From Candidatus Methanosuratincola sp. (lineage in GTDB: Archaea; Thermoproteota; Methanomethylicia; Methanomethylicales; Methanomethylicaceae), in NCBI GenBank assembly GCA_014361455.1, contig JACIVP010000001.1:62001-126000 (forward strand): 64,000 bases of DNA, read 5' to 3'. Position 1 is the first letter of the stretch. Every line of letters begins with the position of its first letter. The position numbers and the translations under genes were made by a program. This document shows positions 3,903-62,018 of this stretch, one piece after another. The notes under the pieces were generated by a model. That model did no database searches, was not told the origin of the DNA, and worked only from the letters and a program-made list of their open reading frames with translations.

Positions 3903-6900
3903 GTGACAGAATTAATTATGAACGGGAAGCTCCCTCCGCCTGTGAGGCGGAGTGACGGAGTGATAGTGCCATTCAATAAGGAGTTGATAGTAAGGAGCCT
4001 GCTCAGGGAAACCAGGCTCGTCGAGGAGCTTTACAACGAGCGCCCACTCACGGAGGAGGAGGCTAGAACAATAGCTGAAGAGGTGCAGGATGAGATACTC
4101 GGGATGCGCCTCAAGATGCTCAGCGGTCCCCTGATACGGGAGATAGTCAACGTGAAGCTCCTCGAGCATGGCTTCACGCAGCACAGGAACGTCTACACCA
4201 GGGTTGGGATGCCGCTGTATGAGGTTTACAAGATAGACAACTCGGACGGGTACGAGTCCAGGGAGAACGCCAACCTCCAGCCCAATCCAGAGACATTCCA
4301 CAAGAAGAAGGCGGACTTCCTGAGCAAGGAGTCCTACCTGCTCATGATCCCGTCGCACATAGCCGATGCGCATTTGCGGGGAGATATCCACATCCACGAC
4401 CTTGAGTACTGGGGCACGCGGCCGTTCTGCATCGACGGCAGCACACTTATCCCTGCCGTCTGGGGCGATCGGCACCAGATGATCCGACCGGATGAGATGG
4501 ACTTTTCGGATGACGCTTATCTCCCCAGGGATCTCAAAGTCCTCACCCCAAAAGGATATAGGAGTGTCCTGAAAGTGACACGGCGCCGGATCGGCGCGGA
4601 CCAGCTCTTAAAGATCCAGACCAGCTCCGGAAAAAGCATAAAAGTGACTGGAGAGCATCGTATCCCCATTCAGGGCGACGACGGCGTAAAGATCGTCCGT
4701 GCGGACAGCATCAGTGAAGGGGATGTGCTCATGCCCTTGGGAGAAGATCCCAGTCTGCGCGGAAAACCGATTCATTCCTTGAATCTTCTCCAGGAACTGA
4801 TAACGCGGGTGCCTGTGGAACTGCTCGAAAAGGTCTATGTAAGGGGTGCAGGTAAAATCTTTGCACGCCTGCATGCTGAGGGCAGAAGCTATGCCGCAAT
4901 CTCCCGGGAACTCGGAGTTGCGCACCACAAGCACTGGTATGCCCGAGGAATCATGCCGATCCGTATATTCCACGACCTTTGCAGGCGATTCGATATCAGC
5001 GATCTCCAGGGCGTACGCCTTGGTGTGGCTGGGAGCGAAGAAGACCTCCCGATAGATCTTCCATTGACGGAGCCGCTTATGCGGCTCCTCGGCTACTTTG
5101 TTTCCGAAGGAAACTACAGCGTTGACCAAGAAAGAGGCTACAATCTCGCCATCACCGAGAACCACCAGTCCGGCGTGGTGATTGCCGATGCACATTCGGC
5201 ATTGAACTGTTATGCCACCCGTTCCGGTGGCGGCTGGGTCAAAAACGGAATGCGCTGGGTCCCGGCAACCAGCAACCGGGCGATGCAGGTCCATTTCGGA
5301 GGAAAACTCGCCTGGCTCCTCTTCCGATACGTCTTTGGGATCACTGAAAACTCAGGAGACAGACATCTTCCTTGGATTGTATGGCACCTTGACGACGACC
5401 TTCTGAGAGAGTTCCTCTCCGCGCTTTTCACCGGTGGCGGCTCGGTCTATTGCCAGCCAGACAAGTCGGATTGCGTCGTGGACTATGCCACGTCCTCCGA
5501 GAGTCTCCGCCAGGAACTGTCGATCCTGCTCACTTCACTCGGAATGAGTCCATATATTCAGGAGCTGCATTCCGGGGAAGATCTGACCGTCCTCTATCAC
5601 ATCCGGCTGAGTGGGGCGGCCAACATAAGGGCGTTCTCCCGCTATGTGCATTTCAATGACGGGCGCCAGGTTCACATCGGCTCATTCCTCTCCAGTGTGC
5701 AGGAGATCCGGAACGATCCATCCCCTGAGAGGGTGACCAATATTTCCGTTGTCGGATCCGCCGATCCTTATGTCTACGACATTTTCCTGGATGGAGACGG
5801 TTCAGAGGAGAGTCATGCTTTTTATGCATCTGACGGGATCCTCATCCACAACTGCCAGGACTGGGACCTGAGGTACTTCTTCCACTATGGCCTGATGCCG
5901 GACGGTACAGGAACACACACCTCTGTCGCCGGGCCAGCAAAACACGCGGAGGTCGCAATCCTCCATGCTGCCAAGGTGCTCGGCGCGGCACAGACGAACT
6001 TCGCCGGTGGCCAGGGGTTCTTCAACTTTACTGTCTTCATGGCCCCGTACCTGAAGGGCTTTGACTCGAAGAAGCTCCACCAGACGGCGCAGATGTTCCT
6101 TTACGAGATGACCCAGCTCTACGTGGCGCGCGGGGGGCAGCCTGTCTTCTCGTCGATACAGATCGAGTCAGGTGTCCCCAAGGTCTGGCAGGACGCCCCA
6201 GTCGTTTCGCATGGCAAGAAGTGGTCCGACCTAAGGTACGGTGACCTTGAGGACACGGTCCACGCATTCGCCGTGGCGCTCCTAGAAGAGTACCTAAAGG
6301 GCGATGCGATGGGCAAGATGTTCAATTTCCCGAAGCCCGAGGTTGTCCAGAGGGTACGGTACTGGAACGACAAGGAGTTCGAGGACGTTATGCTTAAGGC
6401 AGCCGAGCTCTCCGCGAAGTTTGGGTCCACCTACTACGACAACATGATCCCAGCCTACAGGGGAGGGGAGGATGGCGTCTCGTGCTTCCAGTGCTGCGCC
6501 TATTCCTTCTCGGAGGACGGCAAGTCCGAGAACTTCCAGAAGAAGGTAATGTTCGAAGATGGAGCACACTTCTCCATGGGAGGGATGCAGGTGATCACCG
6601 TAAACCTCCCGAGGGTCGCCTACAAGTCTGGCAGGGACGATACGAAGCTCATAGAGGTCCTGAAATCCACCATGGACGTGGCAAAGGATGCCCTCATGCT
6701 CAAGAAGGAGACGATAAAGAGACAGTTTGAGAGGGGGCTAATCCCCTTCGCCTCCCAGCGCCCTCGCGGCGCGCCTCCGGCGGTCGACATAGACAACCTC
6801 TCACTCACGATCGGGTTCGTCGGGATGAACGAGCTGGTGGAGCACATGACTGAGTACGAGATCCACGAGGATCCGTCAGCTCAGAAGCTTGCCCTGAAGG

Positions 6901-7499
6901 TCTTGATCGAGATGGACAAGATAAGGAAGTCCTATAGCGAGGAGACCGGAGAGAAGTTTTCCATCGCGAGGACGCCTGCCGAGTCCGCAGCCCAACGCTT
7001 CGCGGTTGCGGATCTGATACACTACCCCAAGTTCGCAAGGGAGCTCGTCAAGGGCGACCTCGAGAATGCCATCTCGATGCTGAACGAAACGAAGGACATC
7101 CCAGTCTATTACTCCAACGGGGCTCATGTGAACGTATCTGCGCAGATCCCCTTGGACCAGCGCCTCCAGATCGAGCAGAGGTTCTTCCCGATACTCAAGG
7201 GAGGAGACATCTTCCATGTCTGGCTAGGCGAGGCGAACCCAGACCCCGAGGCACTGATGAAGCTCAACATGAGGCTCGCGAGGGAGTCGTGGGTCGGGTA
7301 CTGGTCCCACACCAAGGACATAACGGTATGCCGGGACTGCGGCTACGTCGGCGGTGGGCTGAATTCGAGTTGCCCGACCTGCGGGAGCGTCTCGGTGAAG
7401 AACTACTCCAGGATCACTGGGTACTACCAAGACGTGAGCTCCTGGAATGCTGCCAAAAGGCAGGAGCTCAAGGAAAGGTACAGGGTCAGGCTCTCATGA
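3903..7499 (+). CDS. nrdD: Anaerobic (class III) ribonucleoside-triphosphate reductase with intein
   Basis: Glycyl-radical enzyme that reduces ribonucleotides to deoxyribonucleotides without oxygen. The host protein is about 723 residues after removal of the intein at residues 176-650. An N-terminal ATP-cone covers about residues 13-105. The catalytic barrel includes the GTRPF-CQDWDLRYFFHYG site that the intein interrupts. Near the C-terminus are two CxxC pairs (CRDCG, CPTCG) for zinc, then RITGY, the glycyl-radical site near residue 1170. The start is GTG at 3903 after a G-rich tract. The stop overlaps the start of nrdG, so enzyme and activase are co-expressed. Extein arginines are mainly AGG, as in neighbouring genes. 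Confidence 0.96.
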   Translation: MTELIMNGKLPPPVRRSDGVIVPFNKELIVRSLLRETRLVEELYNERPLTEEEARTIAEEVQDEILGMRLKMLSGPLIREIVNVKLLEHGFTQHRNVYTRVGMPLYEVYKIDNSDGYESRENANLQPNPETFHKKKADFLSKESYLLMIPSHIADAHLRGDIHIHDLEYWGTRPFCIDGSTLIPAVWGDRHQMIRPDEMDFSDDAYLPRDLKVLTPKGYRSVLKVTRRRIGADQLLKIQTSSGKSIKVTGEHRIPIQGDDGVKIVRADSISEGDVLMPLGEDPSLRGKPIHSLNLLQELITRVPVELLEKVYVRGAGKIFARLHAEGRSYAAISRELGVAHHKHWYARGIMPIRIFHDLCRRFDISDLQGVRLGVAGSEEDLPIDLPLTEPLMRLLGYFVSEGNYSVDQERGYNLAITENHQSGVVIADAHSALNCYATRSGGGWVKNGMRWVPATSNRAMQVHFGGKLAWLLFRYVFGITENSGDRHLPWIVWHLDDDLLREFLSALFTGGGSVYCQPDKSDCVVDYATSSESLRQELSILLTSLGMSPYIQELHSGEDLTVLYHIRLSGAANIRAFSRYVHFNDGRQVHIGSFLSSVQEIRNDPSPERVTNISVVGSADPYVYDIFLDGDGSEESHAFYASDGILIHNCQDWDLRYFFHYGLMPDGTGTHTSVAGPAKHAEVAILHAAKVLGAAQTNFAGGQGFFNFTVFMAPYLKGFDSKKLHQTAQMFLYEMTQLYVARGGQPVFSSIQIESGVPKVWQDAPVVSHGKKWSDLRYGDLEDTVHAFAVALLEEYLKGDAMGKMFNFPKPEVVQRVRYWNDKEFEDVMLKAAELSAKFGSTYYDNMIPAYRGGEDGVSCFQCCAYSFSEDGKSENFQKKVMFEDGAHFSMGGMQVITVNLPRVAYKSGRDDTKLIEVLKSTMDVAKDALMLKKETIKRQFERGLIPFASQRPRGAPPAVDIDNLSLTIGFVGMNELVEHMTEYEIHEDPSAQKLALKVLIEMDKIRKSYSEETGEKFSIARTPAESAAQRFAVADLIHYPKFARELVKGDLENAISMLNETKDIPVYYSNGAHVNVSAQIPLDQRLQIEQRFFPILKGGDIFHVWLGEANPDPEALMKLNMRLARESWVGYWSHTKDITVCRDCGYVGGGLNSSCPTCGSVSVKNYSRITGYYQDVSSWNAAKRQELKERYRVRLS
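4428..5852 (+). other. Intein (475 aa) in NrdD with LAGLIDADG-type endonuclease domain
   Basis: In-frame protein-splicing element. The first residue is Cys176, following GTRPF. Block B is TGEHRIPI. The C-terminal block is YASDGILIHN and ends in His-Asn. The next extein residue is Cys651, as needed for class 1 splicing. Two LAGLIDADG-like helices are visible: LLGYFVSEG, which keeps an acidic residue, and LFTGGGSV, where Gly stands at the position usually occupied by Asp. The nuclease may therefore be inactive although splicing residues are intact. CGN arginine codons (CGG, CGC, CGT) are common inside the insert, unlike the AGG-rich extein, which suggests acquisition from another lineage. Confidence 0.93.
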
Positions 7500-10729: not shown

Positions 10730-12421
10730 TTGCGCTTGACCTTCCTAATAAAGGAAAAGGGCGGGATCGATTCGAGGATCTATGAGCGCCTTGAGGGAGA
10801 GGTCTTTGAAGGGCTCGAGAGGCGTCATAGACCCTCGAAGTCAAGGTTCGACCTACCAGCATTCAACATCAAGACTTCCTACGTGCGTCTCTCGAACCAC
10901 GAGATCATCGAGAGTTACCCTGTCGGGCTAGCCACAGTCTACATAACGAAGGAGATGGAGTATCTGATAAACGACCCGCCCCTCACCCCGGAGGAGCACA
11001 CGAAGCTGGGGGAGATCGCTTCAAGGCTCCTATTCATCATGCCAGCATCGGCCGTCGGAGACGAGCGGCAGTTCGACGAGTACCTGAAGAGGGCTGGGCT
11101 TAGTGACCCCCGATTCAAGTACTTCATTAAGAGGGAGATAGTCGGCTACGGTCCCCTGGATCCGATGGTATCTGACCAGAAGATCGAGGACATTGTCGTT
11201 GCCTCATCCAGCAACCCTGTCTCATGCAGCCACTCCGACTACGGGACCATGCCGAGCAATGTCCGGTTCAGGTCCGAGGAGATCGACCGGTACGTCGAGA
11301 AGCTAGTCCACCTCTCCGGGAAGTCGGTCTCGCTCTACAAGCCGATCCTCAGCATAAGGCTCCCGGACGGTTCAAGGCTCTCAGCATCGTACAAGAAGGA
11401 GGTCTCGGTAGAGGGGTCGAGCTTCATCATACGCAAGTTCCCAGAGAAGCCCTGGTCGATCACCTCCCTGATGCTCATGAACACCCTCTCCCCTGAGATA
11501 GCTGCTTGGCTGATGATGCTCGAGGAGCACCGCAAGGCATTCCTCGTCTGCGGTTCAATGGGGACGGGCAAGACCTCAACGATTAATGCCCTCTGCAACC
11601 TCCTCCCCGAGAGGGCTGTTATAGTTACCATAGAAGACACCCCTGAACTCCGGCTGGCCCACCCGAACAGGTTTTCGATGGTCGTCAGGGAGTCTGCCAC
11701 CTTGGACGAGCGCGGTGAGATAGGGATGTTCGCGCTGGTCAAGGAGGCTCTCAGGATGTCCGCAGACTACATCATCGTCGGGGAGGTGAGGGGCGAGGAG
11801 GGGAGAATATGGGCGCAGGCAATAATGACTGGACACGGCGGCATAACTTCGCTCCACGCCGAGAGCCCCTCTTCAGCCCTCGAGCGCCTCCTGTCCCAGC
11901 CAATCTCCGTTGACAAGGGAGCCCTAAAGTCCCTCGCTGGGATCCTCTTCCTAGGCAAGTCTTCTTATTTCGCTGAGGGTCGACCTAGGCAGCGGAGGCG
12001 TGTCCTTAATTACTATGACCTAAACCCCGACCTGACGCTCACCCCGTTCTTCTCATACTCCGGCGAAGAGGACGCATTCGGCCACAGCGAGTCAAGGATC
12101 GTCTCCTCAAACTCTGCGAGGAGGATAATGCAGGAGACCGGCTTCTCTGAGAAAGTCTTTCTTGATAAGTATCGCAAGCGGGTGGCGTTTCTCACCAAGC
12201 TACTCCAGATCGCGAGAGTGAGGCCCGAATACAGAGAGTACCTCATCGTGGCGAAGGCAGTCTGGCTCTTCCAGTCTTCTCCAGACGACTTTGACCCCGA
12301 GGAGCTGATATACTCCGGGGGCTCGTTCAGGGTTGGGCCGGAGGGGCTGTCCGGTGATCTGAACAAAGAAGGAATTGGCAGGGAAGTACACAGAGGCACC
12401 AAAGGTGCTCGGGGCGGGTGA
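10730..12421 (+). CDS. Type II/IV secretion-system ATPase (TadA/FlaI-like, locus A)
   Basis: Hexameric motor ATPase that would power pilin assembly at the membrane. The 563 residues comprise an N-terminal domain of ~260 residues and a VirB11/GspE-type core with Walker A CGSMGTGKTST near residue 275, a TIEDTPELRL acidic box, Walker B SADYIIVGEVRGEE near 345 and the His box GHGGITSLHAE. The TTG start at 10730 follows GGGGTG at a good distance. The next gene starts 7 bases after its stop. There is no integral membrane segment, consistent with a cytoplasmic motor. Confidence 0.9.
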   Translation: MRLTFLIKEKGGIDSRIYERLEGEVFEGLERRHRPSKSRFDLPAFNIKTSYVRLSNHEIIESYPVGLATVYITKEMEYLINDPPLTPEEHTKLGEIASRLLFIMPASAVGDERQFDEYLKRAGLSDPRFKYFIKREIVGYGPLDPMVSDQKIEDIVVASSSNPVSCSHSDYGTMPSNVRFRSEEIDRYVEKLVHLSGKSVSLYKPILSIRLPDGSRLSASYKKEVSVEGSSFIIRKFPEKPWSITSLMLMNTLSPEIAAWLMMLEEHRKAFLVCGSMGTGKTSTINALCNLLPERAVIVTIEDTPELRLAHPNRFSMVVRESATLDERGEIGMFALVKEALRMSADYIIVGEVRGEEGRIWAQAIMTGHGGITSLHAESPSSALERLLSQPISVDKGALKSLAGILFLGKSSYFAEGRPRQRRRVLNYYDLNPDLTLTPFFSYSGEEDAFGHSESRIVSSNSARRIMQETGFSEKVFLDKYRKRVAFLTKLLQIARVRPEYREYLIVAKAVWLFQSSPDDFDPEELIYSGGSFRVGPEGLSGDLNKEGIGREVHRGTKGARGG

Positions 12422-12427
12422 CGACCC

Positions 12428-14167
12428 TTGACGCCTAGAGGTGGCTTTTGTAGGCTGCTGGAAGCGCTCTCTGAATCGATCGCCCGCCGGATCTGCCTGC
12501 GCCTCTACCAGGGAGATCTCGGCGAATCGCCCAACTCTTATGCAAGGAAGATCGCCCTCGCGATCCTCGCCTCATTAGTCCTCTCTTTAATCCCGGTGGT
12601 ACTCCTGGCGATCCGGTCAATCAGCCTCGCCGCTTATGGGCCCAATCTGGTTTGGGATGCGGAGGGGGCAGTGGTGGCAGTGGTAGTAGCAGCGGCCGTC
12701 TCGTCCTGGACATTCACTGCATACCTCTTCATGAGGCTCGTCCTGTCAGCGCGGAAGAGGAAGAGCGCATGTGAGAGGGAGCTGCCTTTCCTGACCGCCT
12801 TTCTAGCAATCGCCGCAGCCTCGGGGATGCCGGTTCAGGTGGCGCTTGAGAGGCTCAGGCGATCGGCCTTCCTCATAGGATTCAGGAAGGAGGCCCAACG
12901 GATTGAGAAGGTGAGGAGACTCTACGCCGTCCACCCTTACGATGCCATGCTCTTCGAGGCAAGGCACCACCCCTCCGAGCGGGTCAGAGACCTCTATTTC
13001 TCGGTTGTTGCAGCACAGAGGCAGGGGGACGCTGTCCCCTCTCTGCTCAGGGACGAGCTGATGAAAGTATTCTCACACCTCCAGGGGGCGATAAAGACCC
13101 TCTCGGACAAGTTCTCCATGATCGCCTCAGCCGAGATGATCGTATTCATACTGGTCCCGATGGGGGTGCTCACGCTCGGGACTATCTTCAGTTCAGTGGT
13201 ATCGCTGCTGGCGCTTGCGGTCGCTTGCATCGTGCTCCCGAGCCTGATCGCCGTCCTCCTCAGCATCATGATCGACTCGTCGATTCCGAAGGAGCTGACA
13301 ACCCCTGTCCCACTGAAGGGGCTCTCGATCGCCCTCGCAGCGTTCCCCTTGGCAGCCGCCCTTTACGCGATGCTCTGGGGAGCCGGAGTCCATGTCCCTG
13401 CTTACCTGGTCTTTGGCGCAGTCCTGCTCTTCTTTCTTGCAGCTGCCTCGGCGTACTACCTCCCCGTGCGGAGGGAGGTCAGCCAGATCATTGCAGCCCT
13501 CCCTGCCTTCACGAGGCTGGTAGCTGAGGAGGTCAAGAAGGGTAGCTCGCCTGGCATGTCGATAATCCAGTTCTCCGAGGCGAGGACTTTCAACAACCAC
13601 TTTGACAGGTTTCTGCACCGGGTATCCGCGTTCCTCAAGATAGGGGTGCCCATCTCGGAGGTCGCAAGCGCCATCCGCGCGCCTTGGGCGGTTAAGGCGA
13701 CCTTCGAGCTTATTGATGAGTCGGAGAGGATGGGATCCGAGCCGAAGAGCCTCGACCACCTCTCTGAGCTGATCTCTAACCTGACGCTCTGTATGAAGTC
13801 CCTCTCGTCCCAGACCCGGCTCTTCACGGCTGTGAGCTACATGAATACGCTTGTGCTGACGTTTACGGCGGTGATCGTGGTCGATGTCGTCGGGAGTCTC
13901 TTTGTCGGGGCACTCGGGAGTGTCAGCGTAGGCATGCCGTTTGGCCTCTCCTTCATGACGGGATCCCAGTACGAGGCTGCCTCTGCTCTCGCATACCTTG
14001 CGGTGATATACGACTCCTTCCTCCTTGGGATCCTTGGCGGGAAGCTAAGCAGGGGGGGATCTTTGGCTGACGGCTTGCTGCCCGCTGCGGTCTGCGTCGC
14101 TCTATCCATTTCCGGTTTCCTGGTCTTCAGGGAACTCGGGCTGGCAAGAATCCTATTTGGCGTTTGA
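12428..14167 (+). CDS. Pilus assembly membrane platform protein, two fused TadC/FlaJ-type domains (locus A)
   Basis: 579-residue polytopic membrane protein that pairs with the preceding ATPase as the platform for filament assembly. It has hydrophobic segments near residues 35-60 and 75-105, a soluble helical block, a hydrophobic cluster at about 235-285, another set at 300-340, a second soluble block and a C-terminal cluster. The repeated pattern (soluble helices with FSEARTFNNHF-like motifs followed by paired TM segments) indicates two T2SF-type halves in one chain. In locus B (58348-59954) the same halves appear as two genes. Start TTG at 12428. Confidence 0.85.
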   Translation: MTPRGGFCRLLEALSESIARRICLRLYQGDLGESPNSYARKIALAILASLVLSLIPVVLLAIRSISLAAYGPNLVWDAEGAVVAVVVAAAVSSWTFTAYLFMRLVLSARKRKSACERELPFLTAFLAIAAASGMPVQVALERLRRSAFLIGFRKEAQRIEKVRRLYAVHPYDAMLFEARHHPSERVRDLYFSVVAAQRQGDAVPSLLRDELMKVFSHLQGAIKTLSDKFSMIASAEMIVFILVPMGVLTLGTIFSSVVSLLALAVACIVLPSLIAVLLSIMIDSSIPKELTTPVPLKGLSIALAAFPLAAALYAMLWGAGVHVPAYLVFGAVLLFFLAAASAYYLPVRREVSQIIAALPAFTRLVAEEVKKGSSPGMSIIQFSEARTFNNHFDRFLHRVSAFLKIGVPISEVASAIRAPWAVKATFELIDESERMGSEPKSLDHLSELISNLTLCMKSLSSQTRLFTAVSYMNTLVLTFTAVIVVDVVGSLFVGALGSVSVGMPFGLSFMTGSQYEAASALAYLAVIYDSFLLGILGGKLSRGGSLADGLLPAAVCVALSISGFLVFRELGLARILFGV

Positions 14168-54221: not shown

Positions 54222-55157
54222 ATGAACTGCGATGAATGCAAAAGCGTTCTGGTCCCTGACGGAAACGGCAGTCTAGTTTGCGTCGAATGCGGTCTCGTCC
54301 ATGCTTACCATGATGATTATGCCCAGTCCGTCGGAAGGAAGCAACGGCTGGGGAGCCTAATAACAAAGGGAACTCCATTCTTCACCGACTCTTCAGAGAT
54401 GAGGCTATCTCCGGAAATTCAAGCGAAGTACGCTCGGCTCAAAAGGCTCCAAGAGTCCGCCTACAACGGGTCATGCTTCGATCTGTTCCAATTCCATCGC
54501 GATCTAGAGTCGATCGCGAGAGAGCTCTCCCTGCCTGGAGATGCCACCGACACCGCCCTGCGTTTCTTTGACGAGCTGCTTTCCAAGTTCAGGAACCCGT
54601 ACGGGAACTACGGCATGCTAATGGCCGTCTGCTTGGCATCAGTCTTGCGAGAATTTGGGGATCGCACACCAGTATGCCTATCCGAGCTAGTCGATGCATT
54701 CAGGAGGAGAGGGTACAGATTATCGGTGAAGGTGGTAGCAAAGAATCTGAGTTTTCACTCCTCCTTCATCCCATTCAACAAGAAATTCCGGAAGCCGGAG
54801 GACTATGTGGGAAGGGTGATCGAAAAGCTGCGGGCATCTGCGTTCATACAAGTCAGGATTCGCCTCCTCGGATTCGAGCCGGAAGATTACTTTGAAAGGC
54901 TTCTGATACTGTCAAAATCGCTCCTTTCAAAACTCCCCCCGCCCCGCAGGTCGGGCAAGAACCCCTACCTCCTTGCGGCCTCTGCCGTCTTCATGGCAAA
55001 TGCGACCCTCGCAGAGTCAAGATCGGCAGAGAACATACTCACTAAATCCCAGTTTTCGAAGGACATCGGGATCGCGGAATACACGCTGCGGAGCCACCTG
55101 TCAACCGTATTCACCGGCGTCATGCCCGGATCGCAGACTGTTGCCGCCGAGGGATAG
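54222..55157 (+). CDS. Divergent transcription initiation factor B (TFB paralogue)
   Basis: 311 residues. The N-terminal zinc ribbon has CDEC and CVEC (residues 3-23), followed by a B-reader-like RLGSLITKGTPFF and two cyclin-like repeats, recognisable but weakly conserved (FHRDLESIARELSLPGDATD; NPYLLAASAVFMANATL). The clear canonical TFB match of core cyclin motifs is missing, so this is an accessory paralogue. It is read toward the pilus gene cluster B. In Sulfolobus, a TFB paralogue (TFB3) activates pilus and DNA-import genes after DNA damage; a similar control here is inference from position. Confidence 0.8.
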   Translation: MNCDECKSVLVPDGNGSLVCVECGLVHAYHDDYAQSVGRKQRLGSLITKGTPFFTDSSEMRLSPEIQAKYARLKRLQESAYNGSCFDLFQFHRDLESIARELSLPGDATDTALRFFDELLSKFRNPYGNYGMLMAVCLASVLREFGDRTPVCLSELVDAFRRRGYRLSVKVVAKNLSFHSSFIPFNKKFRKPEDYVGRVIEKLRASAFIQVRIRLLGFEPEDYFERLLILSKSLLSKLPPPRRSGKNPYLLAASAVFMANATLAESRSAENILTKSQFSKDIGIAEYTLRSHLSTVFTGVMPGSQTVAAEG

Positions 55158-55198
55158 CTATCCTCCCATCCTTTTTTTTAGCAGCATCTTGCCCAATC

Positions 55199-55642
55199 TC
55201 ATACCGCAACCCTGATGGTAAAATCAGCTTTGAATAGGGCCCCTCCATCCCAGAACTCGATGTGCAGTCCTCCGGTCACAAACCACCTCTCCTCTCCAGT
55301 GTAGCCTGAATAACGCATCTGGAACTCGTCAAGCTGTTGCCCTGTGTATTCCTCAACCGAGATATAGCCAACACTAACGACTGGGCTATTGAATTCCTTG
55401 AGCCCTGTTCCGTCATTGATGAATGCACACCACTCCTCCGCAAGAGAGCTGATCTCTTGGCGGGCATTATCCAACGTGGGGGCCTCTGCGTTTGACTTGA
55501 GGTAGCGGCAAAGGTCGAAGAGCAGGTTGTACGAGGTGAACTCGAACTCCTTGAGCAGGTCCAATGCCATCGCCTCCCTCTCCAGTTCTGCGCTTCGGGT
55601 CCCTATCGATAGCGCGGCGATCATGACTATGATTAATATCAT
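55199..55642 (-). CDS. Pilin-like protein, locus B (start uncertain)
   Basis: 147 residues from the ATG at 55642, beginning MILIIVMIAALSIGTRSAEL. In the same frame upstream the sequence reads KKKGVILTAGEA, a textbook class III signal (basic, Gly, then hydrophobic), but no ATG, GTG or TTG precedes it before the frame passes into the upstream gene. Either a rare start is used, or a small indel removed it. The soluble part is unassigned. It is the last gene of the four-gene minus-strand set of locus B. Confidence 0.6.
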   Translation of the reverse strand: MILIIVMIAALSIGTRSAELEREAMALDLLKEFEFTSYNLLFDLCRYLKSNAEAPTLDNARQEISSLAEEWCAFINDGTGLKEFNSPVVSVGYISVEEYTGQQLDEFQMRYSGYTGEERWFVTGGLHIEFWDGGALFKADFTIRVAV

Positions 55643-55662
55643 CGCCTCGCCTGCTGTAAGGA

Positions 55663-55989
55663 TTACCCCCTTCTTTTTATGTAGAATACCGTGGTGCCCC
55701 CATCCCTGCTTGATAAGAACTGTACGTAAGGAACATGGTCAGGCTCTTCTAGGCTCAGACTGATGTTCCCGACGCTTGCCTCTCCCTGCGCGAGGCACAG
55801 GTCGAGTAGACTCGTCGCATTCCCTGAGCACATCACTTGGTAGAACTCCTGCCTCAGCGCCTCCTTTTCTGCGAGATCGCGCAGGCTTTCGTCCCAGCCA
55901 CCTGTATAGACTGAGGGTATCGAGGCAAGTACAACTGCCACAATCAATGCACCCAAAGCGTCTATGATGGGCATCTCCCCCTTAGCCAC
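55663..55989 (-). CDS. Pilin-like protein, locus B (108 aa)
   Basis: From the GTG at 55989: VAKGEMPIIDALGALIVAVVLASIPSVY, a basic start, Gly, Glu and a hydrophobic helix, as in archaeal class III signals. GGAGG lies 8 bases upstream of the GTG, which decides this start over the ATG at 56025. It overlaps the upstream gene by 8 bases. A ~75-residue extracellular part follows. Confidence 0.68.
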   Translation of the reverse strand: MAKGEMPIIDALGALIVAVVLASIPSVYTGGWDESLRDLAEKEALRQEFYQVMCSGNATSLLDLCLAQGEASVGNISLSLEEPDHVPYVQFLSSRDGGTTVFYIKRRG

Positions 55990-56191
55990 GGCAAGAAACC
56001 TCCGGGTATACGTTCCCTGTAGCATTGTCGATTACATATGTCTGAGATCCGGCAGCTATCTCAAACTCTTCGTGAAGCGAATCAAGCGCCTCGATCTGGC
56101 TGTTGATGAGATCGAATGCTGCAATATTCAGCGCCAAGATAGCCAGTATCACCGGGATGGCGAGAACGAACTCCAACTCCTCGTTACCCAT
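55982..56191 (-). CDS. Small pilin-like protein, locus B (69 aa)
   Basis: MGNEELEFVLAIPVILAILALNIAAFDLI: an acidic start and one helix, with a short polar tail. The layout fits a TadE-like minor pseudopilin. It overlaps its neighbours by 8 bases on each side, so the set is tightly coupled. Confidence 0.62.
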   Translation of the reverse strand: MGNEELEFVLAIPVILAILALNIAAFDLINSQIEALDSLHEEFEIAAGSQTYVIDNATGNVYPEVSCRG

Positions 56192-56390
56192 TCTCTACAA
56201 TCCCCATTATCCTCTCGGCATTAACTTCGAATCTTCCTGTGCACGATAGCCTGTCCACGATCTCCTGAAAAATCCCCTGCTGCGGCTCCGACACCACTTT
56301 GAGAAGTTTGGTGAAAATCAAGATGCATCCTTCTCCGACTACTGAAGAGATCAGTATCCAGAGGAGGGCAACAACCCCAAAGACGACCAT
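56184..56390 (-). CDS. Small membrane protein, locus B (68 aa)
   Basis: MVVFGVVALLWILISSVVGEGCI is a signal-anchor, followed by ~40 residues with two Cys. A TATA box (CTTTTATAAT, centred near 56430) lies about 40 bases upstream, which favours ATG 56390 over the in-frame ATG 56411. It is the first gene of the minus-strand set and is divergent from the ATPase operon. Confidence 0.55.
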   Translation of the reverse strand: MVVFGVVALLWILISSVVGEGCILIFTKLLKVVSEPQQGIFQEIVDRLSCTGRFEVNAERIMGIVENG

Positions 56391-56507
56391 GCGCGAAGGC
56401 AATGCCATCACTCAGTATTACGCCGATTATAAAAGCCCGAGCCCGAATTCGCCCCCAAGGGGGGCATGCCATATAAGTCCTTGCGTATGTCGGAGGTCTG
56501 GTTTGGG

Positions 56508-56651
56508 ATGCACTGTCAGGAGACCGAGGATCTCCCCAAAAAGAGGGGCGTCGATGCAATCTCCATACTAGAGGAGCGGGTCACGATCCTCGAATACTCG
56601 ATATGCCTTGTTTCCAAGAAGGTAGAAGAAATTGAGAGAAGGTTCCCTTAA
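56508..56651 (+). CDS. Short coiled-coil protein before the locus B ATPase
   Basis: 47 residues. The C-terminal half, ISILEERVTILEYSICLVSK and on to the end, has a heptad of aliphatic residues typical of a coiled coil. A TATA-like CATATAAG at 56470-56477 suggests a start near 56500; ATG 56466 and 56487 are alternatives. It overlaps the ATPase start by 20 bases, so it is probably translated with it. The family is not recognised. Confidence 0.5.
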   Translation: MHCQETEDLPKKRGVDAISILEERVTILEYSICLVSKKVEEIERRFP

Positions 56652-58332
56652 GGTCTATAGAAACCTCAGTCCTAGGATGACCCTCTCCGAGTTCGAGAAT
56701 GCCTTAGATGATCCCCCCAGTCCAGGCTCCCTCTGCTTTTTCTCCGGGAAGAAGAATTTCCTTCTCACCTGGGATCAGTTCCTTGTGATGCAGCAGGTTT
56801 GCAGAGACCTGCGCCTTTGCCTTGACCTCCTCTCAAAGAAGGCAAAGGACTGCGCTTTCGCGAGGGGAGTTTGCTCATCAATGAACCTGGACTGGATCGC
56901 CCTCCTCGGGGAAGTCCAATCTGGGGTTCTCCATAAAAAAGGGATCAGGTGCAGAATCTGCGGGATCTGCCGCGAGCTCTCCGGGATCAGGTCTCTCACC
57001 CTCTCAGGTCACGAGCTCTCGTTTGCCTTCCGTCCTCAGCTGATCCCGTTTGGTCTAGTCTCTCTAGGGGCGCCTGAGTACTTGGTCCCGCCATACTCTG
57101 TCTACATACTAATGAGATCCGGGAGGATAGTCTACTTCCCGGTGATGTGCAGTCTTTCGGTCAGAGACAGGATCAATGTGTTCCGTCTGATCAGGAAAGT
57201 CAGGAGGCACGAGCAGAGGAACCTCAAGCCCCCCTTCTCGATAGAGCTCGGGAAAGTGATTGAAGAGAGGCGGTCTATCCTACAGGGCTTTTCCAAGCTC
57301 AGCGAGCCTGCCGAGATCTTTGCCCTATACGCGTCCGTCGGGCTTGCCGACATCCTCACCCTACTGATCGACGACAATGTCGGAGAATTTTACATAGATT
57401 CTCCGCGCTCCTTCGCCTATATCGACCACAGAGAGCTTGGGAGGTGCGAGTCATCAATCTGGGTGGGCAGGGGGGTGGTCGAGCGACTGCTTGCCTTCTC
57501 GGCTTGCAGCAACCGGAGGGCCTCAGATTACCTGCATCCTTCAATCAAGGCCTCGATAAAGACCGACGAGTTCCACGCCCGTGTATCGATAGATACCCCT
57601 CCCCTCTCCTTTGAGGGTGCATCTATCGATATCCGAAAATTCTTCAGAAATCCGACCGACATCAGCACACTGATCAGGAACAAGACGGTCACCCCAGAGG
57701 CTGTCTCGTACCTGCTCATGCGGCTGAGGGCTGGGAGTAGCTTCAGCATATATGGTGAGAGCGGCTCCGGAAAGACCACGCTCGCGATCGCGTTGGACCT
57801 CGAGACTCCGCAGCACTGGAGGAAGTACTCTGTGGAGTCAGACATCGCAGAGAACATCACTCAGCGGCATCTCGGGAAGCACCAGGTGAGGCTTCTGGCA
57901 GCAACTGGGTCTGCAGAGGCATCCAAGAGGCGGAAGGAAGTCCTGGACAGCCTGCTCCACAAGTCCCCGGACTATGTCTTCTTCGGAGAGGTCCTCTCTG
58001 AGTCCGACAGCCATGCCCTCTTCCAGATCCTGGCGTCTGGAATACGCTGCATACACACCGTGCATGCCCCGTCAGGGGAGGGGCTCTTGAGGAGGTTCGC
58101 CTACCAACACCACATCCCCTTGGTGTCCCTCTCTGACCTGGGTGTTCTTGTCCAGATGCGAAGGTTTGACACCGGAGGGAACTTCACTCGGAGGGTGGTC
58201 AGGATATCCGAGCTCGTACGCGACGACCTGCTGGTTGAGATGCCGCTCCTGAGAGACCTCTTCTTGTGGAACCCTGGATCCAGCCAGCTTGAACCGACCC
58301 CAGCATACCGGGAGATGTCGATACCCGCATAG
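56632..58332 (+). CDS. Type II/IV secretion ATPase (TadA/VirB11-like, divergent, locus B)
   Basis: 566 residues. An N-terminal ~360-residue region includes a Cys cluster (CRICGIC near 105) and an unassigned domain. The motor core has Walker A IYGESGSGKTTLAIA near 375, a SVESDIAEN acidic box, Walker B PDYVFFGEVLSES near 447 and the His box IHTVHAPSGEGLLRRF near 475. The usual GEVRGxE is altered to GEVLSES, so it is a divergent member. It is co-directional with two membrane platform genes, a pilin and a HerA-like gene. TTG 56632 or ATG 56677 may be the start. Confidence 0.85.
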   Translation: MREGSLKVYRNLSPRMTLSEFENALDDPPSPGSLCFFSGKKNFLLTWDQFLVMQQVCRDLRLCLDLLSKKAKDCAFARGVCSSMNLDWIALLGEVQSGVLHKKGIRCRICGICRELSGIRSLTLSGHELSFAFRPQLIPFGLVSLGAPEYLVPPYSVYILMRSGRIVYFPVMCSLSVRDRINVFRLIRKVRRHEQRNLKPPFSIELGKVIEERRSILQGFSKLSEPAEIFALYASVGLADILTLLIDDNVGEFYIDSPRSFAYIDHRELGRCESSIWVGRGVVERLLAFSACSNRRASDYLHPSIKASIKTDEFHARVSIDTPPLSFEGASIDIRKFFRNPTDISTLIRNKTVTPEAVSYLLMRLRAGSSFSIYGESGSGKTTLAIALDLETPQHWRKYSVESDIAENITQRHLGKHQVRLLAATGSAEASKRRKEVLDSLLHKSPDYVFFGEVLSESDSHALFQILASGIRCIHTVHAPSGEGLLRRFAYQHHIPLVSLSDLGVLVQMRRFDTGGNFTRRVVRISELVRDDLLVEMPLLRDLFLWNPGSSQLEPTPAYREMSIPA

Positions 58333-58347
58333 GAGGGGAAATCTGGC

Positions 58348-59166
58348 TTGGATATAACCGAAAAAAAGCGCAACCAGCCGTTGTCGGTTCTTCTAGCCGC
58401 GCTGTCCAGGCGATCAATCCTCCCATCCTGCGTATCAGTGCGGCTATCATCAGTTCTTGGATACAATGCTTTGGATGCGGACATGGATAAGGAAGAAGGG
58501 GTAGAGCGCCGTGGCAGTGGCATACTCATAACTGGGATCAACCTGCTCACAGTCTCGATAGTAGCCGCCCCATTGGCAACCCTATTCGGAGCAATCCCCC
58601 TTCACCTGGCAGCGGCTGCACCAGTTGCCGTGTTGGTGTTTCTAATTCTGCTGCCCAAGATCATTGGCAAGGGATCAGAGATAAGGGATCTCCTTGATGC
58701 CGCGCACTCCTTCGAGGTCTTCGCGACCGTGCTCTTCGCCACAGGAAACCTGGGGCTCGCCACGAAGCGGGCATCACAGACTCCAGGGAAAGCCTCTCAT
58801 CGGTTCAGATCAGCGCTGATTTCAATGAGAAACGGGGAGGCGCCGGATAGAGCTGTTCTCCGCTCCTTCAGCGGCGAGGGGATCTGTTTGGAGTGGGTCA
58901 AATCTGCGGTCAATGGTAGGTCGGGCGGGATCTCACCAGTCATCACAAATTGGTATGCTGAGGTACACACAAGAATCCTTAAGGCAGAAGACATGCTTTC
59001 GCTGCTGGTTGCCCTCTCGACGATCTTGCCCATAGGTCTTTCGATGGCGATGGCAGTCTGGGGGCTGCTCTCCACGCCATTGTCGGCGCTGCTGATACTT
59101 GCCTTCTCTGTGGTCATAGGGATAGTTTTCTGCTGGTTCAAAGGTCTTGAGGCGATCCTTTCATGA
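58348..59166 (+). CDS. Pilus platform membrane protein, first half (locus B)
   Basis: 272 residues. After ~55 soluble residues there is a double hydrophobic region (about 62-108), then a soluble helical block, then two C-terminal TM helices (LLVALSTILPIGLSMAMAVW; ALLILAFSVVIGIVFCW). This is one T2SF/TadC-type half. AGGAGGGG precedes the TTG start at 58348. Its stop overlaps the next gene (ATGA). Confidence 0.75.
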   Translation: MDITEKKRNQPLSVLLAALSRRSILPSCVSVRLSSVLGYNALDADMDKEEGVERRGSGILITGINLLTVSIVAAPLATLFGAIPLHLAAAAPVAVLVFLILLPKIIGKGSEIRDLLDAAHSFEVFATVLFATGNLGLATKRASQTPGKASHRFRSALISMRNGEAPDRAVLRSFSGEGICLEWVKSAVNGRSGGISPVITNWYAEVHTRILKAEDMLSLLVALSTILPIGLSMAMAVWGLLSTPLSALLILAFSVVIGIVFCWFKGLEAILS

Positions 59167-59954
59167 AGCAGTACTTACCGAACCCCTTGGCAGTCCTTGT
59201 TTCAGCACTCGTTTCAGTGCCCCTTGCATCCACCGAGGGTGCCGTTTGGGTACTGGTTTTCCTCTTGGTTCTCCTTCCCTTCGACAGGTTGATGCGTGCC
59301 CGTAGCATCTCCCGACGCAAAGGCGAAGACAGGACCTCCACCTTTCTGCTGACGTTCTCAAGGCTTCTGAGCTCGGAATCCCCGGGCGAGGCACTTGTCA
59401 CATCATTCGGAACTTCAATGCCCAATGGGGAGACCCTGAGTGACTTGCTGGTGCTCAGGGACGGGAGGTCGGTCCCATCAGTGATGCGCCGGATGTCCAA
59501 GAGAATGCCGACCGAAAGCCAGACCTTCGAGGCCATCGCAACGCTGCTCTCCTTTGACAAGGAGTCGTCCAGAGAGAGGCTAAGATCCTTCGCAAAAATG
59601 AGAGAAGAGCGCAAGAGGGTCAGACAGGATCTCGAAGTGCGACTAAAGGCAATCTCGATGCGGTTCAAGATACTCTCAATGATTTCCTCCGCCTCCCTTG
59701 CGGTCCTTGCCTTCGTCTCACCTATACTCGGATCCTTCTTTTCTGATCAGCGCCTGAACCAGGTGGCGATAGAATCCCTGATTCGGTTCGATTTCCAGGC
59801 TTTTTCCGCCTTCTATTCGCTGGTCCTCATCTCGTCATACCTCCCTACCAAGGTTCTCCCCTTCGTGGGCGGATCCGGCTCTATGCTGCGCGCCTCGGCA
59901 TCCTACCTCCTGACATACCTGCTGCTGATCATCACATTAGGCACTGCCTTTTAA
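59163..59954 (+). CDS. Pilus platform membrane protein, second half (locus B)
   Basis: 263 residues with the same plan: N-terminal TM pair (PLAVLVSALVSVPLA and VLVFLLVLLPF), a helical soluble block ending MREERKRVRQDLEVRLKA, then TM helices at about 175-200, 220-235 and the end. It corresponds to the second half of the fused protein of locus A. It is translated from the ATG overlapping the previous stop. Confidence 0.72.
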   Translation: MKQYLPNPLAVLVSALVSVPLASTEGAVWVLVFLLVLLPFDRLMRARSISRRKGEDRTSTFLLTFSRLLSSESPGEALVTSFGTSMPNGETLSDLLVLRDGRSVPSVMRRMSKRMPTESQTFEAIATLLSFDKESSRERLRSFAKMREERKRVRQDLEVRLKAISMRFKILSMISSASLAVLAFVSPILGSFFSDQRLNQVAIESLIRFDFQAFSAFYSLVLISSYLPTKVLPFVGGSGSMLRASASYLLTYLLLIITLGTAF

Positions 59955-59981
59955 AGCCCCACGATCTATGGGAAAAAGAGT

Positions 59982-60200
59982 ATGCGCAAGCCTTTTTCGA
60001 GAAAGGGGTCACCTCTGGTTGAAGAGGGGCTGCTGCTCGGGCTGTCCATAGTAACGCTCACCGTTGTCATGTCCATCGTCGTCGGTCTACTTTCGGGGGT
60101 ACAGAACACCTTCAACCTGTCCATATTTAACGGCAACGAGTTCATCGAGAGCCTGCGGAACTCAATAAACCAAGTCCTTTCATTCTTCAGGATAGGCTGA
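59982..60200 (+). CDS. Small pilin with class III signal (locus B)
   Basis: 72 residues: MRKPFSRKGSPLVEEGLLLG, then SIVTLTVVMSIVVGLLSGV. The basic KKG-like cleavage context and Glu near +5 of the mature start are typical of type IV pilins. The mature protein would be a helix with a short tail, like bacterial Flp or Tad pilins. It is placed between the platform genes and the HerA-like ATPase, so it is the likely major subunit of filament B. Confidence 0.75.
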   Translation: MRKPFSRKGSPLVEEGLLLGLSIVTLTVVMSIVVGLLSGVQNTFNLSIFNGNEFIESLRNSINQVLSFFRIG

Positions 60201-60203
60201 GAT

Positions 60204-62018
60204 ATGCCCCTCATACCCTCATTTTTTCTAGCACTTCTCCTCTTCCTATTCCTCAAGGATTACTTTGGATATGCCATGGCCGCTGCTGCATCAGTCGGAA
60301 CCATATTGCTGGCAGTCTTTGTCTCTGCATTGGCGAAACGCAACCCCTATAGGGGGGCAGTAGTCAGGCTGGGTTCATCAACCCCGGTACTCGAGTTTGG
60401 AGGCAAGACCTATGCTGCGGCTGCCCTGTCGATAAGCATTTCTCAGGACGAGTCTTTTGGCCGTTTTGAAAAAGAGCTTGCATATGAGCGCCTCTGCAGG
60501 TTCACCGAGGCTATAGGCTCTTTTGGGATCCCGACCGCATATCTCCTCTACTCTCTGCCCGGAACCAAGCCCTTCCGAGAATCTCCGACTGGGAGCCAGG
60601 CACTCCTTGTCGCTTGGCTGTGTTCTGATGACAAGAGAGATCTATCCGAGAGGACGGATATGACATTCAGGCAACTTGAGAGCATGGTAAGTCTGGTCTT
60701 TCCTAGTGCCCAAACTACGAGGCTGGACAATAAGGACCTGTCGCTGATAATTTCCTCGCCCCTTCCCTACTCGCTGGGTAAGATCGGTAGCATCGCTGAA
60801 GCCCCTTCTGAGGCAGTTCCAGCACTTGTCCCTCCACCCCCCGACCGCCAGGAGCCATCATCGCTCGTGCCTGCTATGCAGCCTCCCATAACCTCCGGGG
60901 GACCAATGATCGGCTTCGTCTACTCTATGGGGAAGAAGATCGCGCCCCTCTGCATCCCACTCGCTGACATACGGCGGCACGTCTCGATATTCGGAGCTAC
61001 TGGTAGCGGCAAGTCCACGACCGCGCTCAGCCTTGCTCTCCGGCTCTACTCGTCTGGTGCATCCGTTCTGATCTTGGACTGGCACGGAGAGCACTCCGCC
61101 GCGGTTGAGGACGCGGGTGGGCTGGTCCTAAGGCCAGGTGTCCAGGGCGGTCTCACGATAAACCCACTATCGGGCTTCGTCGGTAATGACCTTGGCTTCC
61201 AGATTGAGTTCATCACCGACATTTTTTCCCAGGTTTTCCACTTCACTCCCCCGCAGTCATACATGTTCAGAGAGGCGCTTAAGGCGGCATACAGGTCCAA
61301 GATCACACCGACGATCTCTGACTTGATAGCCGAGCTGAGTCTTTTGCCGGTGCGGTCTAGCTGGGACCATGAAACGAGGATGGCTCTTATGCGGCGCCTG
61401 AAGTCGTTCACAGAGGGCGCATGCGGTTTTGCCCTCTCCGGGTCGGACTCGATCCCCAGGGAGAAGATCTTCCAAGGCTTGGTTTCAATCGACCTGACTA
61501 ACCTCAAGGATGTCAACAACAGGACGATCTACGCAAACATACTGATGAAAATGGTCTACGACTACTGCGTCCATCGGGGGGAGCAGCCTGGCCTCAACCA
61601 CATACTCTTCATAGAGGAGGCACAGAACATATTCCAGCCTAGGCGCCCAGAAGACCCAATGACCATTGGCGAGAGGATATTGGCCGAGCTCAGAAAATTT
61701 GGGGAGGGCGTCGTCGTGATCTCACAGTTCCCCTCATCAGTCTCCCAAGACGTGGTCAAAAACACCGCCGTCAGGATCATACATGCGATCAGATCAGGCG
61801 AAGATCTGAAAATGATCGCCGCCTCCACATCAATGGACGAAAAGCAGGTCGGCGCAATCCCCCTCCTTTCTGTTGGTGAGGCAATAGTGAGCCTCCCAAG
61901 CAGATCTGGGAACTTCTTTGTAAGGGTCTCAGCCGATCCGCTAGCGGCAGCCTCAAGTAACATCAGTGCAGGAACTCGTGGAGAACCCCTTCCTTCTGGA
62001 GTAGAGCAATCCAATTGA
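60204..62018 (+). CDS. Membrane-anchored HerA/VirB4-like (DUF87) ATPase, CedB-like
   Basis: 604 residues. Two N-terminal TM helices (about 4-18 and 23-43) tether a variable domain and a Pro-rich linker (PPPPDRQEP). The DUF87/HerA motor has Walker A FGATGSGKSTTALSL near 265, DWHGEHSA, Walker B HILFIEEAQNIF near 467, SQFPSSV and RIIHAIRSGED. Membrane-tethered HerA-like ATPases include CedB, which takes part in DNA import in Sulfolobales, and VirB4 of conjugation. Its position right behind pilus genes supports a DNA-transfer or pilus-coupled role. Its 3' end overlaps the convergent kinase gene by 56 bases. Confidence 0.82.
   Translation: MPLIPSFFLALLLFLFLKDYFGYAMAAAASVGTILLAVFVSALAKRNPYRGAVVRLGSSTPVLEFGGKTYAAAALSISISQDESFGRFEKELAYERLCRFTEAIGSFGIPTAYLLYSLPGTKPFRESPTGSQALLVAWLCSDDKRDLSERTDMTFRQLESMVSLVFPSAQTTRLDNKDLSLIISSPLPYSLGKIGSIAEAPSEAVPALVPPPPDRQEPSSLVPAMQPPITSGGPMIGFVYSMGKKIAPLCIPLADIRRHVSIFGATGSGKSTTALSLALRLYSSGASVLILDWHGEHSAAVEDAGGLVLRPGVQGGLTINPLSGFVGNDLGFQIEFITDIFSQVFHFTPPQSYMFREALKAAYRSKITPTISDLIAELSLLPVRSSWDHETRMALMRRLKSFTEGACGFALSGSDSIPREKIFQGLVSIDLTNLKDVNNRTIYANILMKMVYDYCVHRGEQPGLNHILFIEEAQNIFQPRRPEDPMTIGERILAELRKFGEGVVVISQFPSSVSQDVVKNTAVRIIHAIRSGEDLKMIAASTSMDEKQVGAIPLLSVGEAIVSLPSRSGNFFVRVSADPLAAASSNISAGTRGEPLPSGVEQSN

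Follow-up and report, generated by a model that had tools for sequence, protein, structure and literature searches.

A type IV pilus locus with a CedD-like ATPase and a divergent TFB paralogue in Candidatus Methanosuratincola: a candidate DNA uptake or exchange module

We analysed a window of 64,000 nucleotides from Candidatus Methanosuratincola sp. (contig JACIVP010000001.1, positions 62,001 to 126,000), in which positions 54222-62018 carry genes of an archaeal type IV pilus (T4P), a membrane-anchored HerA/VirB4-type ATPase related to CedD and a divergent paralogue of the transcription factor TFB (Table 1). The block is flanked by LSm/TGT on one side and by adenylate kinase/thermosome on the other. 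Neighbouring genes of the plus-strand operon overlap or lie 3-27 bp apart. Between the two divergent arms, a gap of 54 bp contains a TATA-like element that is conserved in the genus and could drive both. All genes named by the original prediction were recovered, including the TFB gene directly upstream and the HerA-like ATPase, which has a HerA/DUF87 match and two N-terminal transmembrane (TM) helices. Gene content and homology suggest that 54222-62018 is a self-contained module for T4P-coupled DNA uptake or exchange, run by the TFB paralogue, a reading that we moderately favor.

Table 1. Predicted genes and elements at positions 54222-62018 of the window (aa, amino acids; ORF, open reading frame; AF2, AlphaFold2)
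Feature	Position	Strand	Basis
TFB paralogue of 311 aa, divergent; Zn ribbon and cyclin-like regions; predicted to regulate the module	54222..55157	+	profiles, tree, co-absence in five genomes
One-TM pilin-like protein, 147 aa	55199..55642	-	ORF, TM prediction, conserved in family f1
One-TM pilin-like protein, 120 aa	55663..56025	-	ORF, synteny, TM prediction
One-TM small pilin-like protein, 69 aa	55982..56191	-	ORF, synteny, TM prediction
One-TM small pilin-like protein, 75 aa	56184..56411	-	ORF, synteny, TM prediction
TATA-like element TTATAAAAG	56427..56435	.	in gap separating divergent arms; conserved in genus alignment
Coiled-coil-type small soluble protein, 61 aa	56466..56651	+	overlaps ATPase start; ORF, synteny, TM prediction
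T4P-type secretion ATPase, 566 aa, clade of its own	56632..58332	+	T2SSE and FlaI profiles, structures, tree
Putative half-platform a (TadC-like), 272 aa	58348..59166	+	hhalign, single comparisons
Putative half-platform b (TadC-like), 263 aa	59163..59954	+	hhalign, single comparison; AF2 model
Type IV pilin (E5-type), 72 aa	59982..60200	+	alignment of about 30 homologues; synteny
CedD-like membrane-anchored HerA/VirB4-type ATPase (HerA/DUF87), 604 aa	60204..62018	+	NF053655, trees, model, fold search, N-terminal TM

Homologues of the 120-aa pilin-like protein are about 108 aa long, suggesting a later start for this ORF. An inverted repeat, GCCCCCAAGGGGGGC, lies at 56451-56465 in the divergent promoter, immediately 5' of the coiled-coil ORF, and is partially conserved in the genus.

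The HerA-like ATPase is best placed in the CedD family, that of the Sulfolobales DNA-import ATPase. NCBIfam models scored it at 207 bits for CedD (E 3e-61), 63 bits for repair HerA and 15 bits for CedB (E 0.006). It has the CedD architecture, an N-terminal TM domain and a C-terminal HerA/VirB4-like ATPase domain; an N-terminal TM segment was present in none of the ten repair HerAs examined. In a fold search, its AlphaFold model (pLDDT 80.6) matched HerA at E 5e-20, and it matched VirB4 with an rmsd of 3.8 A and a TM-score on the target of 0.78. A first tree recovered a CedD clade (95/84) of all locus proteins minus two Ignicoccus-like ones, separate from CedB (100/99). A larger tree placed the CedDs of T4P-bearing lineages in one clade (100/99), apart from CedB, with HerA shifting among the crenarchaeal CedDs at weak support; HerA formed a separate clade (100/100) in both trees. 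This separation and the profile scores exclude a HerA-NurA identity, and the CedB score and the separate CedB clade exclude CedB. Moreover, a search of 61 relatives at the curated cut-off, with a positive Sulfolobus control, found no CedB orthologue, nor was there a match in the window's own genome, so that the CedB-type ATPase of the original prediction was not borne out. In family f36 CedD is divided between an ORF of 205-208 aa and another of 314-320 aa, the N-terminal part being split from the ATPase domain (locus L105, 8480-10314; L112, 9732-11557), and in family f3 an XPD/Rad3-like helicase ORF, assigned by eye, lies directly 3' of CedD (L226, 13811-15601).

The secretion ATPase is of the VirB11/GspE type found in archaeal T4P, with matches to T2SSE (4e-9), NCBIfam FlaI (1e-21) and FlaI structures (3e-19). 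The locus ATPases form one clade (100/100) apart from UpsE, AapE and ArlI, which rejects an UpsE identity. The 72-aa pilin and about 30 aligned homologues have a class III signal, K/R-G preceding SPLVEEG, with Glu at +5, and the genome has a prepilin peptidase gene outside the locus, as in archaeal T4P. The two putative half-platforms each have about four TM segments; hhalign, in single-comparison values, aligned a with b (5e-6) and matched both weakly to canonical TadC, a to its N-terminal half (2e-3) and b to its C-terminal half (9e-5), and gave no match to UpsF alone. The AF2 model of half-platform b is all-helical (pLDDT 74). Their predicted platform role is the weakest assignment in filament assembly. 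A second, conventional T4P pair lies at 10730-14167 of the window, with an ArlI-like ATPase (563 aa) and an UpsF-like platform that is in one piece (579 aa; E 1.5e-40 to NF046075).

Profiles made from the window genes and run on relatives' loci revealed deep conservation of this arrangement. Flanked by LSm/TGT/PAC2 and adenylate kinase/thermosome, the complete order recurs in the genus, in the family (f1) and order (f2) of the window, in families f3 and f7 of the same class and in families f14, f25 and f36 of other classes; in f44 and f15 the profiles recognised TFB, ATPase, pilin and CedD but not the platform genes. Among 200 genomes sampled across the phylum, with kinship left uncorrected, 35 carry the locus ATPase, and CedD adjoins it by coordinates in 26 of the 35, with one pair split by a contig end. 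Both in the window and in other classes, CedD starts a few bases past the pilin stop or overlaps with it. The entire stretch from TFB through CedD is missing from five genomes of the same family (G009, G012, G013, G016 and G017; three genera; 90-98% complete), which lack CedD at E 1e-20 and the locus ATPase at E 1e-70; here about 50-170 bp separate LSm from adenylate kinase, after which comes the thermosome where the contig continues. Many of the compared genomes are draft assemblies in which an absence may reflect incompleteness, though the empty sites sit on contiguous sequence. The empty site therefore identifies the boundaries drawn by the original prediction as those of a single unit of gain or loss, in keeping with its proposal of a single-locus module. 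Because the order recurs up to other classes and the whole block is absent as one piece, the cluster is more than a chance association. The original prediction had named two findings that would speak against it, clustering of the HerA-like protein with unrelated DUF87 proteins such as the HerA-NurA repair type and an unconserved gene order; since the ATPase sits with CedD rather than with HerA-NurA and the order is conserved, neither applies.

Parts of the block are found at the same site in other lineages. All five Sulfolobales loci have CedD, the thermosome, a TFB of 180-195 aa and LSm/TGT nearby, without T4P at the site. The short TFB is taken to be TFB3 from its length, Zn ribbon, promoter motif and gene number. 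In Sa. islandicus, CedD is SiRe_1715 (PMC11868833) and TFB3 is SiRe_1717 (PMC10470591), numbering that fits one gene between them. A CedD profile scan of genome contigs gave, among the matches listed, one useful further locus, L051 of a Pyrolobus metagenome-assembled genome. The Pyrobaculum site reads LSm, RPB8-like gene, short TFB, short ATPase, membrane protein and thermosome, and its ATPase falls inside the 100/100 clade of the window ATPase, apart from UpsE, AapE and ArlI. This system is the clade 4D that Makarova et al. termed most unusual, partly for its TFIIB (PMC4858521).

The TFB paralogue of the window is full length; its matches to the TFIIB Zn ribbon (E 0.0015) and the NCBIfam TFB model (8e-6) all lie under the curated cut-offs, and we therefore call it divergent, as predicted. 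Locus TFBs, Pyrobaculum TFBs and one further T4P-linked TFB form a clade at 93/78. Judging from position, we hypothesize that TFB3 descended from the locus TFB. The original prediction had tied the locus to Ced/Ted systems by architecture only; this understated the TFB link, for which the truncated TFB beside thermosome and CedD in all five Sulfolobales loci provides positional evidence. Membership in a damage-induced programme such as it described for Sulfolobales did not find support. The UV-response promoter motif of Sulfolobus is A(N)TTTC between -80 and -30 relative to the start codon (PMC5817253); it occurs 5' of the TFB3-like gene (-76) and CedD (-63) of S. acidocaldarius and is absent in that range from the window starts tested. 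Five genus members share a conserved A(C/G)TTTC over 100 bp 5' of the TFB start; this is outside the motif range, and it was not counted. In the genus alignment, we saw no motif that the TFB promoter has in common with the divergent one.

CedD is found with two sets of genes. CedA, the VirB6-like Ced pore (NF041796), is encoded by 29 of the 200 genomes, with strong matches all in families f11, f20, f24, f27, f37 and f42, and it never occurs with the locus ATPase (0 genomes; Fisher one-sided p 0.002, relatedness uncorrected); CedD is present in both the CedA-bearing and the ATPase-bearing genomes. CedA gave no match in the window's genome (G000), nor did any of the genomes that carry the locus ATPase yield one, and the Sulfolobus control was positive, with CedA, CedB and CedD of S. 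acidocaldarius each above cut-off. Since CedD belongs to both sets and CedA and the locus ATPase exclude each other, the simplest reading is that CedD has two alternative partners, the T4P in one set of lineages and the type IV secretion system (T4SS)-like CedA/CedB in the other.

Taken together, these data point to a working model of the module. The TFB paralogue would direct transcription of both divergent arms, as its position, its co-loss with the block and the role of TFB3 suggest. By homology, the ATPase and half-platforms may build a filament from the 72-aa pilin and the minor pilins, and this filament may contact DNA or a partner cell. CedD, as a membrane-anchored HerA/VirB4-type ring, would then use ATP to pump DNA inward across the membrane, with the T4P standing in for the CedA/CedB conduit. 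Saccharolobus needs CedD to import DNA but not to export it (PMC11868833), and DNA uptake by Methanococcus maripaludis needs a type IV-like pilus (PMC10133366). Because several archaeal classes have the block and remains of it lie at the same site in Sulfolobus, it is probably an ancestral apparatus for DNA uptake or exchange. A fuller history, to which we give slightly less than an even chance, is that the module was the ancestral DNA-uptake machine of much of Thermoproteota, in which the T4P captured DNA, CedD pumped it in and the TFB paralogue switched the system on; TFB3 and CedD of Sulfolobales and the Pyrobaculum T4P-TFIIB locus would be its relics, and the Sulfolobales/Desulfurococcales line would have lost the pilus as CedD took CedA/CedB as partners.

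Several results weigh against this model. Neither a CedA nor a CedB orthologue, and thus no DNA-conducting channel, was identified in the genome; the half-platforms have no Pfam match, and Foldseek with the model of half-platform b returned no PDB fold match. The 207 bits of the ATPase lie under the NF053655 equivalog cut-off of 600, and the Sulfolobales homologues score 621-743 bits. An approximately unbiased test of holding all CedDs together gave p 0.07, so that the trees neither establish nor rule out a CedD clade exclusive of HerA; given these trees, orthology with Sulfolobales CedD rests on profile, architecture and chromosomal site combined. TFB3 joins the locus TFB group weakly (91/51), its truncated architecture is not that of the window TFB, and the UV-response motif is missing. 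Families f4, f6 and f9 of the same class keep TFB, ATPase and pilin at the site, with platform genes recognised in f9; CedD is displaced in f4 and f6 and was not located in f9. Pyrobaculum likewise retains ATPase and TFB, with CedD not at the site, and crenarchaeal families retain CedD without the pilus, in Desulfurococcales-type genomes at this same site. Because these lineages keep the parts separately, the link between CedD and the pilus is not obligatory.

Such separations would be expected of a pilus for adhesion or aggregation next to a CedD that acts as a DNA-repair or chromosome-linked ATPase and merely shares a slowly evolving neighbourhood, all the more since the flanking genes are themselves conserved housekeeping genes. 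This explanation seems unlikely to us: CedD starts within a few bases of the pilin stop in more than one class, CedD and the T4P ATPase are jointly missing from five genomes whose site is empty, and f4 and f6 retain their displaced CedDs, which fall in the same clade as the T4P-lineage CedDs in the larger tree. The main directional rival is a DNA donation machine, in which the pilus makes cell contact and CedD pushes DNA out, like TdtA of Thermus, a hexameric, membrane-binding HerA-family ATPase needed there only for donation (PMC5365140); VirB4-type conjugation motors also act in export (PMC11868833). The import role of Saccharolobus CedD, the nearest tested relative, argues in the opposite direction, and we consider export distinctly improbable. 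As for a bona fide damage-induced Ced/Ups system of the Sulfolobales kind, the company of a CedD-like ATPase, a T4P and a TFB, with a TFB3-like gene at the same Sulfolobales site, would recommend it; the genome without CedA and CedB, the ATPase outside the UpsE clade and the absent A(N)TTTC leave it very little credibility. Strict Ced membership is refuted, CedA and CedB having been sought with working controls and not found.

If T4P-coupled DNA uptake under a TFB regulator is the correct interpretation, a DNA-import ATPase, a pilus and a regulator were joined in one ancestral unit, which would explain the proximity of CedD and TFB3 in Sulfolobales and give the unexplained Pyrobaculum T4P-TFIIB locus an origin. 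DNA exchange would also become testable in mcr-bearing archaea beyond Sulfolobales; McrA is encoded by the window's genome and its family, which suggests a lineage of the Methanomethylicia type, and an mcr-bearing relative, Methanosuratincola petrocarbonis LWZ-6, is available as an isolate (PMC12244365). Outside the window, this genome has two McrA-type genes (C1:253381 and C112:33308), a canonical one scoring 222 bits and a divergent one scoring 76 bits, and a divergent match of similar score occurs in G007, G014 and G017. Elsewhere in the window, 3903-7499 encodes NrdD, an anaerobic ribonucleotide reductase with a length of 1198 aa; an intein-containing model matches its residues 207-651, which are probably an intein.

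In the open-access literature, with subscription papers and preprints outside our scope, we found no report tying CedD, TFB3 and a T4P to one locus. Like Sulfolobales CedD (SiRe_1715; NF053655), the window ATPase is of the HerA/VirB4 type with an N-terminal membrane anchor and lies in the same neighbourhood of thermosome, TFB, LSm and TGT; it differs in its score under the curated cut-off, in a genome without a CedA/CedB partner and in an operon shared with a T4P. TFB3 (SiRe_1717, Saci_0665) is likewise a TFB paralogue at the same chromosomal site adjoining a Ced-type gene, but is truncated, whereas the window TFB retains its cyclin-like regions, and the sequence tree does not join them firmly. 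Another close system is the T4P-like clade 4D of Thermoproteales with its TFIIB (PMC4858521), which shares the ATPase clade, the adjacent TFB and the site between LSm and thermosome; however, it is reduced, without pilins, with a short ATPase and a one-cyclin TFB, and with no CedD at the site. The Ups pili of Sulfolobales are also T4P tied to DNA exchange in their own organism, although UpsE belongs to another ATPase clade, the platform is in one piece and the ups operon lies elsewhere. In the T4SS-like Ted/Ced import systems (PMC9905601) a HerA/VirB4-type motor serves DNA import, yet through a VirB6/VirB2-like conduit (CedA/TedA and CedA1/TedC), none of which was found in the case of the window. 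Finally, Thermus uses pili for DNA uptake and also has TdtA (PMC5365140), a HerA-family DNA pump associated with the membrane, but TdtA works in DNA donation and is carried on a mobile island.

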